64,000 nt of DNA from Opitutus sp. ER46. Lineage in GTDB: Bacteria > Verrucomicrobiota > Verrucomicrobiia > Opitutales > Opitutaceae. Below the pieces are notes generated by a model. It did no database searches. It had not been told where the DNA came from and saw nothing but the letters and a program-made list of their open reading frames with translations. Both the position numbers and the translations under genes were made by a program. The stretch lies in assembly GCF_003054705.1 (NCBI RefSeq), contig NZ_QAYX01000021.1, positions 186,001 to 250,000 on the forward strand, in the 5' to 3' direction. Below are positions 28,014-35,025 of the stretch, piece by piece (within the stretch, counting starts at the first letter, position 1; each line of letters opens with the position of its first letter).

Positions 28014-29873
28014 TCAGCGGGGCTCTATGACCGCAACGTGACCGGCTTGGTCGGTGAGGAGGACTGCACCGTTGGCCAGGGGGCAGGGCGTGTTCAGCGC
28101 GGCGACGGCGAGCCGGTACTTCCAGCGGATCGCGCCCGTCTTCGCGTCGAGCGCGAGCAGGATTCCCGTCTTGGTGCCGTAGTACACGGTGTCGTCGCGC
28201 TCGGTGAGCATTGCCGTGTTGAAGTCGGCGCCGTACTCGGCGTCGGTTTCCCACACGAGTTCCGGCTTGGCGGAGGCGGTGCGATAGGCGCGGATGAACT
28301 GGCGCATCGCGCCGACGTACACGCGCTGCCCGTCAGCGGAGATCCCGATCGACTCGCGCGCGGAGTACGGCTCCTTCACCTGCCACACCTCGGCGCCGGT
28401 GCGGGCGTCCAGCGCGATGACCTTCTGCTCGGGATTGACGATGAAGACCTTGCCCTCGGCCGCGACCGGCCAGCACGCGGCAGGCGAATAGAAGCGGCTC
28501 TCGCGCGCGACTTTCCACGTCCACGCCTCGGCCCCCGTCTTCGCGTCCAACGCATAGAAGGTCCGATCCCAGGCGCCGAAGTACACGCGGCCGTCGTGGA
28601 TCAGGGGGCGAGTTTCGATGTAACCCTGCCCCCCGGCGTGCTCCCAGCGCAGCTTGCCGTCGGCGAGCCCGAGCGCCCGGAAGCGCCCTTCGCTCGAGCC
28701 GATATAGACCACGTCGTCCGCCACCTGCGGACACGCGACGATCGGTCGCGCGGTCTTGAACTGCCAGCGGACGGTGCCGTCGGCGGCCTTGAGCGCGTAA
28801 ACGCTGCCGTCGGTCGAGGCGACGACCACGGTGTCGCCGGCCACGCACGGCGTGGAGTGCACCGCGCCGCCGGTCTGGAACGTCCAGGCGGGTGCGCCAT
28901 CGGCGAGCGCGAAGCTGCGCACCGCCCCCGAGGCGTCACCGATGATCGCGTGGTCGCGCCACACCACGGGCGAGGACACGATGGTCCAGCCGGTATCCTG
29001 CTGCCAGCGGCGGCGCAAGGGCGGGTAGTTTTGGGCGAAGCCGAAGCGCGGCCGCGGCGTCTGCGGCGCGCCTGCGAACTCCGCCCGCCGGTCGCGTAAT
29101 GCGACCTCGTGCCAAGGCGCGGCGGTGGCGCCGCCGTGCGGGTGCACCGCGAATGTCATCCGGTCCGCGGATACGCGGACAATCGTGAACGCGCCGACGG
29201 GTGCCGTGGCGCGGAGATTCGAGCGCGCCATCACGCCCGGCACGCCCTCGTGGTCGAAGACGCGGTTGGCGTGGCCGTGGCCAAAGAGCGCCGCCTGCGT
29301 GTTCACGCGCTTGAGGCGGTCGAGCACCTCAAACCAGTTGGTGATGTCGGGATCGAGCGGGTAATGCGTGACGAAGACCACCGGCTCTCCTTTGGCGGCA
29401 TCGCGCGCGAGCGTCTCGTCCAGCCAACGCAAGTCCTGCGGCGCGAAGTGCCCGTTGCCCATCCGCAACACCGGTCCCTCGTGCAGCCCGATGAAGCGGA
29501 TGCCCGCATGCGTGAACGCGAACCGGTCCGCGCCGAATACGCGCGGGAAATCGGTCGCACCCGACTCCGACCATTTGCAGTCGTGGTTGCCGGGGATGAT
29601 GTGCAGCGGCACGCGCAGCCCGCCGAGGATCTCCCGGGCACGCGTGAGCTCCGCGAGCGTGCCCAGATCGGTCACGTCACCTGACACGATCACGAATGCG
29701 AGGTCGGGCATCGCGTTGATGTCGCGCACGGCGGCGGCGAGATCCTCCGCGCCCGTGCGCCCCCCGACGTGCGTGTCGGTGAGCCAGGCAAAGGAAAAGT
29801 CCGCCGCGCGCCCCGGGGTCACGCCGAGCGTCAGCAACGCAAGCAGCAGGGGAAATAGGTTCAATCGCCGCAT
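28014..29873 (-). CDS. Secreted metallophosphoesterase fused to PQQ-type beta-propeller
   Basis: The 619-residue protein has a signal peptide (ends TPGRAA). The N-terminal half is a calcineurin-like phosphoesterase with LTDTHVG, SGDVTD, PGNHDCKW, VTHYPLD and FGHGHANR, giving all two-metal ligands. From about residue 285 a propeller of PQQ-like repeats follows (for example DGSVYALKAADGTVRWQF, DRTFYALDAKTGAEAW and GILLALDAKTGAIRWKY). The propeller could place the phosphatase on a polymer or protein partner. No PQQ-enzyme active site is visible, so the repeats are probably structural. ATG 29873 is selected for its signal peptide; the extra upstream codons would run into the palindrome array. Confidence 0.88.
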   Translation of the reverse strand: MRRLNLFPLLLALLTLGVTPGRAADFSFAWLTDTHVGGRTGAEDLAAAVRDINAMPDLAFVIVSGDVTDLGTLAELTRAREILGGLRVPLHIIPGNHDCKWSESGATDFPRVFGADRFAFTHAGIRFIGLHEGPVLRMGNGHFAPQDLRWLDETLARDAAKGEPVVFVTHYPLDPDITNWFEVLDRLKRVNTQAALFGHGHANRVFDHEGVPGVMARSNLRATAPVGAFTIVRVSADRMTFAVHPHGGATAAPWHEVALRDRRAEFAGAPQTPRPRFGFAQNYPPLRRRWQQDTGWTIVSSPVVWRDHAIIGDASGAVRSFALADGAPAWTFQTGGAVHSTPCVAGDTVVVASTDGSVYALKAADGTVRWQFKTARPIVACPQVADDVVYIGSSEGRFRALGLADGKLRWEHAGGQGYIETRPLIHDGRVYFGAWDRTFYALDAKTGAEAWTWKVARESRFYSPAACWPVAAEGKVFIVNPEQKVIALDARTGAEVWQVKEPYSARESIGISADGQRVYVGAMRQFIRAYRTASAKPELVWETDAEYGADFNTAMLTERDDTVYYGTKTGILLALDAKTGAIRWKYRLAVAALNTPCPLANGAVLLTDQAGHVAVIEPR

Positions 29874-29902
29874 GCCCGCCACCATCGCGACGTCCTCCGC
29901 CG

Positions 29903-30071
29903 GTGTCACGTGTTACGTGACACTCCGGCCCCGCGCGCTCGCCACGAAACTGTCACGCAATACGTGACAGTTTCGCGGGGCGCCCGAGGGAGGCGTGCGG
30001 AAAAGTGTCACGTATTGCGTGACACTGACGGCCGGGTACGAGGGTGAGAGTGTCACGTATTACGTGACACT
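29903..30071. promoter_or_regulatory. Array of four TGTCACG-CGTGACA palindromes in a divergent gap
   Basis: Four near-identical palindromes lie in the gap between the divergent genes starting at 29873 and 30153: GTGTCACGTGTTACGTGACAC (29903-29923, one base beyond twenty is only its final C); 29945-29975 with 13-bp arms CGAAACTGTCACG around CAATA; 30004-30026 with 9-bp arms AGTGTCACG; and 30049-30071 with perfect 11-bp arms AGTGTCACGTA around a single T. Centres are 47, 55 and 45 bases apart. The conserved core is TGTCACGnnnnnCGTGACA. Likely a multi-site operator for a dimeric regulator, or a cluster of mobile hairpins; the sequence alone does not decide. Confidence 0.8.
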
Positions 30072-30152: not shown

Positions 30153-30623
30153 ATGAACCCCGATGATGCTCCCGCCCCGACTCCCGGCGCCCGGCCGGGG
30201 TGCGAATACGCGGCCGCCTTCCTCCTGCTGCGGCTCTTCCTGGGCCTGCGCACGCTGCTGTCGGGCGTGGAGAAGTTCGAGAACCAGGGTACGTACGGCC
30301 TGGGCAACTACGCGCAGAACGCGGCGCACCTGGCCCAGGGCATCACCAACGCGTCGTTCCTGCCGCTGTGGTTGACGCGGGGATACGCGCTGGCGCTCGG
30401 CTACGGACTGCTGGTCGTCGGCGGCATGCTGCTGCTCGGGATCAAGTCGCGGCTGGCGCTGATGCTCGCGGGGGCGGTCTACCTCTCGCTCGCCTTCGGA
30501 CTGATGGCGGTGCAGGAGGCCGAGGGCGTGGCCTGGCTGGCCATTCACATCGGCCTGATCGCGGGGGCGCTGGTGCTGGTACGCCACGAGCGGTTCGCGC
30601 TGTGGCCGACGAACCGATCCTAA
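30153..30623 (+). CDS. DoxX-like small membrane protein
   Basis: The 156-residue protein has four predicted membrane helices: about residues 20-38 (AAFLLLRLFLGLRTLLSG), 82-104, 110-127 and 130-147. The N-terminal RLFLGLRTLLSGVEKFE is DoxX/TQO-subunit-like. Family members support quinone-linked oxidation or unknown membrane redox functions; no assignment beyond that. ATG 30153 is favoured because the longer frame from 30087 adds an Arg-rich stretch. It is the first gene of an apparent operon through 35870 and lies just downstream of the palindrome array; the next gene starts 13 bases later. Confidence 0.68.
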   Translation: MNPDDAPAPTPGARPGCEYAAAFLLLRLFLGLRTLLSGVEKFENQGTYGLGNYAQNAAHLAQGITNASFLPLWLTRGYALALGYGLLVVGGMLLLGIKSRLALMLAGAVYLSLAFGLMAVQEAEGVAWLAIHIGLIAGALVLVRHERFALWPTNRS

Positions 30624-34279: not shown

Positions 34280-35025
34280 GCCCCGAAATCTCAGTCGTAA
34301 TTCCGGTGTACAACGAGGCCGGCAACCTCCGGCCGTTGTTGCGACGGCTGGCGGCGGTGTTGTCGCGCCTCGGCCGGCCGGCCGAGGTGCTCGTGGTCAA
34401 CGACGGCAGCACGGACGGGACGGCGGTGGAGATCGCCGCGGTTGCCGGCGAGGTGGCGGGCTTGCGGGAACTACGTTTGCCCAGTCAGTCGGGCCAGGCG
34501 CACGCGCTTTGGGTCGGACTGCAGGCGGCGGCGGGCGGGTATATCGTGACGCTGGACGGCGATGGGCAGGACGATCCCGAGGACATTCCGCTCCTGCTGG
34601 CCGCCGTGGCGAAAGGGGAGGCCGACCTGGCCTGCGGCTGGCGGGTGGACCGGCAGGACACGCGCCTGCGGCGGGCGATGTCGGCCCTGGCAAACGCGGT
34701 GCGCCGGGGCGTGCTGCGCGACGGGCTGCATGACGCGGGCTGCCAGTTGCGGGTTTTCCGGCGGGCGGTGGGCGGGGTGATGCGGCCGGGCACCCTGATG
34801 CAGACCTTCCTGCCGGCGCTGGCGGTGGCGGCGGGCTTTCGCGTGCGGGAGTATCCGGTGCGCCATCACGCGCGGCGGCATGGCGCCTCGCATTACGGGC
34901 TGGCCCAGCTCTGGTGGCGGCCGGCAGTGGCGCTGGTGGCGGTGGCGTGGCGCCTGAGGCGCGAACGGCGGGCGCGGTTCGCGCGTTCGGGGACGGGACG
35001 CGGGCGGCGGGGGGCGACGCCATGA
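34276..35025 (+). CDS. Family 2 glycosyltransferase, polyprenol-phosphate sugar synthase-like
   Basis: The 249-residue protein begins with SVVIPVYNEAGNL and has VVNDGSTDGT and LDGDGQDDPEDIP, the nucleotide-sugar and metal-binding motifs of GT2 enzymes close to dolichol/polyprenol-phosphate mannosyl synthases. No C-terminal membrane helix is clear; the end is Arg-rich (RRERRARFARSG). It overlaps the preceding Agl23-like gene and the following ApbE gene by ATGA junctions, so the three are translated together. It probably charges polyprenyl phosphate with a hexose for the upstream enzyme; the sugar is unknown. Confidence 0.88.
   Translation: MSPEISVVIPVYNEAGNLRPLLRRLAAVLSRLGRPAEVLVVNDGSTDGTAVEIAAVAGEVAGLRELRLPSQSGQAHALWVGLQAAAGGYIVTLDGDGQDDPEDIPLLLAAVAKGEADLACGWRVDRQDTRLRRAMSALANAVRRGVLRDGLHDAGCQLRVFRRAVGGVMRPGTLMQTFLPALAVAAGFRVREYPVRHHARRHGASHYGLAQLWWRPAVALVAVAWRLRRERRARFARSGTGRGRRGATP

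Follow-up and report, generated by a model that had tools for sequence, protein, structure and literature searches.

Dispersed palindromes of the Opitutaceae and their putative helix-turn-helix partner protein

Background

Between two divergently oriented genes of Opitutus sp. ER46 lie four nearly identical palindromes at regular distances, and the question they raise is whether they serve these two genes or belong to something larger. For the window, i.e., the whole stretch of 64,000 nucleotides that was analysed, the original prediction had offered two readings, namely a cooperative operator of a dimeric regulator acting in both directions, or an amplified mobile hairpin linked to a transposase of the Y1/RAYT type. 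Both readings are weighed below against the occurrence of the palindrome in the rest of the genome and in related genomes, and against the genes that lie beside it.

Four palindromes in one intergenic gap

A pattern search of the window returned four exact copies of TGTCACG-N5-CGTGACA, with steps of 47, 55 and 45 bases (Table 1), each of which fits TGTCACGTRTTRCGTGACA on one of the two strands. Both this spacing and the predicted arm lengths of 9, 13, 9 and 11 bp were confirmed, the arms of 9 (palindromes 1 and 3) being read off the window sequence and those of 13 and 11 (palindromes 2 and 4) being computed. The arms are kept, as had been stated, but the centres are less different than claimed, since palindromes 2 and 3 are exact reverse complements of each other; they are not four unrelated words. 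The idea of a strand-specific wobble, pointing to an RNA orientation, was judged by eye and was dropped because the centre does not keep to one orientation.

Genes were called with a purpose-made codon-score caller, not a standard one. The gene to the left matched the Metallophos and PQQ-propeller domains, in line with the phosphatase-PQQ propeller that had been predicted, and gave no match in the genus at E 1e-40 when the orthologous gap was searched for. The right-hand genes were assigned to a MauE-like protein, a GFO/IDH/MocA oxidoreductase, F5/8-C, and PMT_2, the last by a weak match below the cut-off. A minus-strand gene call at 34471-34881 breaks the supposed six-gene operon on the right ahead of the ApbE gene. 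No regulator gene adjoins the gap, as had been noticed before, and the helix-turn-helix (HTH) gene described below is likewise absent there.

Table 1. Features of the palindrome array, its neighbours and related loci of Opitutus sp. ER46 (positions refer to the window unless a contig or locus is named)
Feature	Position	Strand	Remarks
Left neighbour, calcineurin-like phosphoesterase with PQQ-type beta-propeller	28014..29885	-	start faces array
Palindrome 1	29904..29922	+	TGTCACGTGTTACGTGACA; extended arm 29903-29923
Palindrome 2	29951..29969	-	TGTCACGCAATACGTGACA on + strand; extended arms 29945-29975 (13 bp, loop 5)
Middle spacer, 36 bases	29970..30005	+	contains GAGGGA
Palindrome 3	30006..30024	+	TGTCACGTATTGCGTGACA
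Palindrome 4	30051..30069	+	TGTCACGTATTACGTGACA; extended arms 30049-30071 (11 bp, loop 1)
Right neighbour, MauE-like membrane protein	30153..30623	+	PF07291, just above cut-off; start faces array
HTH gene	G000:C24:708627-709073		148 aa; locus L066; single copy in genome
Second palindrome family	L238 10709-10732; L239 1124-1147, 1154-1181		contigs C20, C22

Dispersal in the genome of Opitutus sp. ER46

Occurrence elsewhere at the rate of chance, the outcome that would have spoken against the original prediction, was not what was found. The genome (5,714,369 bases in 25 contigs) contained 70 exact palindromes and none of the reversed control pattern, which excludes chance for the palindromes of the window; with as many as three mismatches to the oriented form allowed, 76 palindromes were found. 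All 70 exact copies fall into 26 clusters. Nine of these are full four-site arrays, six are pairs at a distance of 54-55 and three are pairs at 112; two consist of a single copy, and the remaining six are of other kinds. The nine complete arrays have a spacing of 46-48, 55-56 and 45-47 bases, and their middle spacer always contains GAGGG (GAGGGA in seven of them), which gives the array a direction. In addition, GGAAAAG-like ends precede a palindrome in array spacers, and GAAAA occurred near 20 of 75 palindromes of this genome versus eight of 271 control places, the latter taken from all genomes. Mean pairwise identity among the full arrays amounted to 0.91 for the palindromes, 0.53 for the spacers (with 0.32 expected from composition) and 0.40 for the flanks. 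This difference between palindromes and spacers, together with the shared spacer direction, indicates that the arrays descend from one another, their spacers having decayed and their palindromes having been kept. The relatedness of the spacers of different arrays also speaks against a CRISPR array, with its unrelated, acquired spacers.

Occurrence among relatives and copies within genes

Within the genus, exact copies were present in seven of 27 genomes (70, 53, 27, 16, 14, 1 and 1 copies) and absent from 20. In the order, the exact core TGTCACGTAWTACGTGACA was retrieved from 15 of 372 genomes, all of them Opitutaceae, which corresponds to 15 of the 77 genomes and 10 of the 29 genera of this family. 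A pattern scan of contigs, giving a lower bound for the taxon spread, matched at least 116 named contigs, whose titles all name Opitutia, Opitutae, Opitutaceae, Verrucomicrobia, or one of the genera or candidate genera of that group, and the palindrome TGTCACGYAWTRCGTGACA was not found in viral contigs. In these searches, with the contig scan as a lower bound for the spread, the palindrome did not turn up outside the Opitutaceae, and within this family its distribution is patchy.

In relatives, the palindrome occurs as pairs at 48 or 54 bases, as tandem repeats of 43-45 bases, as single copies, and at the centre of an element of about 150 bases. The latter, seen at L094, L095, L101, L107, L149, L182, L190 and L199, has inverted termini like TAGTATTACTCTGTTA...TAACAGAGTAATACTA and looks like a MITE. 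Furthermore, 22 of 165 clusters in relatives were called within open reading frames, where they encode peptides such as CHVIRDT, CHVLRDT and SVTYYVT; this count includes some G004 loci twice and two doubtful cases (L068, which belongs to Opitutus sp. ER46 itself, and L123), and the lack of stop codons is partly by construction, as the caller scores a cluster as inside only where the frame is open. Compared with solved homologues, an RlmN protein of a relative carries about 26 extra residues bearing two palindromes, and a MoeA protein has 33 residues facing nine, a palindrome insertion. In G004 and G006, a sugar transferase gene holds a palindrome pair 54 bases apart, with one exact copy and one that has a single change, and in G025 it holds such a pair with one change in each copy; its orthologue in G007, where exact copies are absent, contains a decayed pair 54 bases apart, with four and three mismatches. 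An in-frame palindrome is also present in a SAM-methyltransferase-like gene of four genomes (L160, L189, L197 and L273), apparently at the same place, and in G356 (L273) it is the sole exact core copy of the genome.

The self-complementarity of the palindromes extends past their core. Pair positions 10 and 11, both outside the core, were complementary in 82% and 74%, respectively, of 287 hairpins, versus 38% and 43% expected, and all four pair types occurred at position 10. Similarly, at least four extra pairs were present in 25.8% of 97 single copies versus 3.6% of re-paired controls. As the flanks are self-complementary beyond the core, the palindromes probably form hairpins or cruciforms at some stage, which suggests that their copying passes through such an intermediate. 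As to other motifs, 15 of 285 palindromes and none of 271 controls had a CAGAGG at a distance of at most 15 bases; the loci concerned are in relatives, including L045, L178, L193 and L198, with no case among the 75 palindromes of Opitutus sp. ER46.

An HTH gene bracketed by palindromes

Clustering of palindrome-adjacent genes revealed a small protein encoded between palindrome pairs in different genomes. In Opitutus sp. ER46, its gene (Table 1) starts 48 bp downstream of a four-palindrome array (C24:708386-708578) and has palindromes on one side only; the L078 and L150 genes have them on both sides. A profile search retrieved the family from 36 of the 372 genomes of the order, all 36 belonging to the Opitutaceae, and from 10 of the 27 genomes of the genus, including all five with at least 14 palindromes. 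Across the phylum, it was present in 19 of 387 genomes, of which 17 belong to the own family and two (G528 and G548) gave weak, partial matches. Viral contigs yielded four pattern matches, none of which was confirmed, and a search with one HTH protein found none in plasmids and phages.

Examination of 49 distinct HTH genes, the best loci among 77 matches in the order and 19 in the genus, revealed a palindrome with an A-W-T-like centre within 500 bp of 44 of them (34 on both sides, six upstream only and four downstream only) and none such within that distance of the other five. The background was 35 of 1667 windows, and 70 of 1674 when the start filter was omitted (2-4%). Occurrence in the 77 family genomes, with two palindrome patterns summed, followed the same trend: the HTH gene was present in 13 of 13 genomes with at least 10 copies and in 17 of 18 with at least five, versus 19 of 59 with fewer than five (Fisher 3.4e-6). 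Six genomes lacking the gene hold one to seven copies. Conversely, 11 HTH-bearing genomes contained neither of the searched patterns, which may be explained by the variant palindromes that adjoin some of their HTH genes. In G006 (27 copies) and G016 (16 copies), which are drafts of 85% and 96% completeness, respectively, the HTH genes found adjoin palindromes other than TGTCACG. Several HTH paralogues may be present per genome, as in G004 (five matches) and G198 (eight matches), and those of G004 adjoin different palindromes.

Concerning the unit that moves, L078 (G004) and L322 (G025) share 586 bases at 73% identity, from outermost palindrome to outermost palindrome, and no further match of more than 150 bases. 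Other locus pairs share their flanks, indicating that the HTH gene is also inherited in place. No second gene that generally travels with the HTH cassette was found within flanks of 1.5 kb. The largest cluster in this search consisted of residual HTH proteins, and the remaining clusters had at most three members, save one of upstream genes formed by L142/L323, L322 and L337. This upstream gene family (L142 3736-4038, L322 2-1291 and L337 3-1265) adjoins HTH genes in three genomes, each time with other palindromes, as though different cassettes occupied a single slot.

Covariation between HTH residues and palindrome bases

The palindromes beside HTH genes differ in sequence and include TGTCACG, TGTCACC, TGTCACT, TGTCATC, TTTCACG, TTTAACG, TGTAACG, TGTAACC, TGTAGTC and TTTGCCG, among others. 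After the five genes without a palindrome had been left out, residue 2 of the predicted recognition-helix motif was R or K with G at base 2 in 39 cases and P with T in five, with no exception (n = 44; Fisher 9e-7). The palindrome filter required T or G at base 2, and a recount without this filter gave the same result. Where residue 6 was H, base 4 was C in 23 of 25 cases; D and G went with C in three of three cases, and Q, R and Y with A in six of six, whereas N was split, with five C and five A. In addition, distances between proteins correlated with distances between sites (Mantel r 0.40, p 0.0002). As the HTH sequences are interrelated, these p-values overstate independence, and the five P genes represent perhaps four independent cases. 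Variant palindromes were also dispersed in other HTH-bearing genomes, with 73 copies in G379, 64 in G335, 55 in G352, 22 in G326, 20 in G246 and 19 in G337.

An AlphaFold2 model, based on an alignment of 26 rows (pLDDT 79, pTM 0.53), comprises helices 9-40, 60-72, 77-85, 89-98 and 105-129, and the predicted recognition helix, 89-98, begins with the covarying residue R89. Among solved folds, lambda repressor (1rio; Z 7.3, rmsd 2.9, 68 aligned) and HNF-1A (8pi8; Z 6.9) were matched; the best Foldseek E was 0.21, and the Pfam matches HTH_3 (5e-4) and YdaS (9e-5) were both below the cut-off. These middling scores give the fold class at most. The HTH profile gave no match to PDB sequences or NCBIfam and only weak single-member matches to PHROGs, and no catalytic domain was recognised with Pfam, NCBIfam or PHROGs. 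Of the dimeric regulator in the original prediction, an HTH family in which the predicted recognition helix and the palindrome covary can be retained, and the divergent-promoter operator cannot, only five of the 26 clusters being divergent.

A REP-like family with its own partner

Taken together, the palindromes probably constitute a REP-like dispersed family of the Opitutaceae with a dedicated, putative DNA-binding HTH partner, and not with a Y1/RAYT transposase. The sequences show the dispersal and fixed spacing of the sites, the conservation of palindromes versus decayed spacers, the linkage to and co-occurrence with the HTH gene, and the covariation of residues and bases. Each palindrome would most likely serve as the target of a dedicated HTH homodimer of the Cro/XRE type, encoded once in this genome, and the palindromes and the HTH gene together would form one REP-like element family. 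As a rule, the HTH gene has its own palindrome on either side, and solo copies, pairs and four-site arrays are scattered elsewhere, mostly between genes and, in relatives, at times in frame within them. The copy in the window would have reached its gap by dispersal; it is an ordinary member of an unusual dispersed family, and no special operator for its two genes, although a protein bound there may affect both of them. Binding of the palindrome by the HTH dimer would be direct and cooperative along the array, and would expose the palindromes to purifying selection.

REP/REPIN-RAYT systems are described as short, mostly intergenic palindromes that frequently occur in pairs with variable spacers, with a linked gene flanked by repeats, REPs being commoner in genomes that hold a RAYT gene (PMC3116915, PMC3733652, PMC8049555). 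The palindromes of the Opitutaceae are likewise dispersed, mostly extragenic, and commoner where the linked gene is present. Unlike in those systems, the bracketed gene encodes a putative Cro/XRE-like HTH protein instead of a Y1 transposase, a GTAG tag is lacking, and the core, a near-perfect palindrome of 19 bp, forms arrays of four with a fixed 46/55/46 spacing in Opitutus sp. ER46. Palindromes with no known transposase, some of them in frame in genes, are described for CGTC REPs and Rickettsia palindromic elements (RPEs) (PMC3733652). The in-frame copies in genes of relatives, verified for RlmN and MoeA, resemble these, but a dedicated putative DNA-binding partner is present here; the CGTC tag itself was not enriched (38 of 285 palindromes versus 48 of 271 controls). 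The predicted fold and recognition-helix logic of the HTH protein may correspond to those of Cro/XRE regulators such as lambda repressor and C proteins; unlike in these, its sites are genome-wide and include convergent gaps as well as coding frames of relatives, and its gene is usually bracketed on both sides. Some palindromes of relatives are placed, as in MITEs, in the middle of an element with inverted terminal repeats; unlike in MITEs, no such repeats were seen by eye in Opitutus sp. ER46, whose arrays were inspected with 28 bases of flank. A literature search, with subscription papers outside its scope, found no HTH-REP pair.

Alternative explanations

A first alternative holds that the palindromes are REP/REPIN-type hairpins copied in trans by a Y1 (RAYT/IS200-like) transposase, with the HTH gene as a passenger or repressor. 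The dispersed, paired, intergenic and sometimes intragenic palindromes resemble the REPs of Opitutus terrae (PMC3733652), and flanks that are self-complementary past the core fit a hairpin substrate. Y1_Tnp was present in 23 of the 27 genomes of the genus; the five with at least 14 palindromes each had at least 11 Y1 matches, and the 20 palindrome-free ones had zero to seven. Against this, none of the 13 Y1 matches of Opitutus sp. ER46 lies within 5 kb of any cluster, 20 Y1 loci are without an exact palindrome (seven of them holding a match with 2-3 mismatches), and the palindromes bracket the HTH gene instead of Y1. Moreover, G339, with 24 copies and an HTH gene, has no Y1 match, and G335, with 64 copies, has one. 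Finally, 12 of 285 palindromes (one of 75 in Opitutus sp. ER46) and five of 271 controls had a GTAG in their 15-base flanks, which does not amount to a REP tag. Copying by Y1 in trans is a rather unlikely explanation, and Y1/RAYT as a cis partner was rejected for this genome, no Y1 match being within 5 kb of a cluster. As regards the amplified mobile hairpin that had been proposed, the dispersal is borne out by the 70 copies and by the in-frame copies in relatives, whereas the linkage to Y1/RAYT is not supported, in view of the distances in this genome and of the palindrome-rich G339. This genome also has a second family of palindromes, TAACTAGCCA...TGGCTAGTTA, at a few kb from Y1 transposase genes (Table 1).

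SlmA, Noc and MatP targets are chromosome-organising sites. Palindromes comparable to these, with the HTH protein bridging or anchoring many clusters, would account for scattered multi-site clusters of fixed spacing, and in G246 the distribution of 20 variant sites along the chromosome shows no departure from uniformity. Such a role is improbable, as the patchiness in close relatives and the absence from 20 of the 27 genomes of the genus are unlike a core function, and as reading frames of relatives contain copies.

Still less probable is a classic regulon, in which the palindromes would be operators of a transcription factor governing the flanking genes, in the window in both directions. It is consistent with the HTH partner, with symmetric sites of the homodimer type, and with the position of the window array between two gene starts. 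The other clusters argue against it: 13 of the 26 lie between tandem genes, eight between convergent and five between divergent ones, with 59 tandem, 27 convergent and 33 divergent among the background gaps of at least 100 bp at the same loci. At least 24 clusters are clear of any called gene and two overlap one; the neighbouring genes present their end to the array in 29 of 52 cases and their start in 23. In addition, no Pfam family occurred in more than three of 47 nearest neighbours, one taken on each side; these 47 remained of 52 after removal of three calls of fewer than 90 aa, one duplicate and one overlapping call. The in-frame copies in relatives and the variable presence among them also weigh against a regulon. 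The few divergent clusters and the lack of a shared function among the neighbours indicate that the palindromes are not a divergent-promoter operator. The genome-wide search that had been proposed for finding operators gave dispersed copies, as described above, and no functionally related set of genes beside them.

RNA hairpins acting in transcripts, through termination or stability, are very unlikely: the pairing at positions 10 and 11, with all four pair types at position 10, is in their favour, but the exact core sequence is conserved beyond the needs of a stem, the window has no Rfam match, and the covarying partner protein resembles a DNA-binding fold.

Conclusions

The preferred reading of the palindromes is a REP-like family with a dedicated HTH partner, and it is this partner protein that is new: the sequence comparisons indicate that every variant of the repeat is accompanied by a small, putative DNA-binding protein of its own, in place of the transposase that such repeats usually have. 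The family would spread as REP systems do and be recognised like an operator, and it shows neither the tag nor the repeat-flanked transposase of the REP families considered. As a tentative extension, which is possible but on balance doubtful, the family may represent a self-propagating class that consists only of an HTH gene and its palindrome and lacks its own transposase. By pairing palindromes or opening them, the protein would then recruit host replication or repair to copy them, and protein and palindrome would have co-evolved into many mutually private pairs in this one bacterial family. The family bears on how palindromic repeats that lack a transposase, such as CGTC REPs and RPEs, spread and persist. 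As the partner protein is identifiable, dozens of diverged pairs are available and the residue-base code is readable, binding, dispersal and benefit to the host are directly testable. In addition, it would be a natural source of orthogonal HTH-operator pairs.
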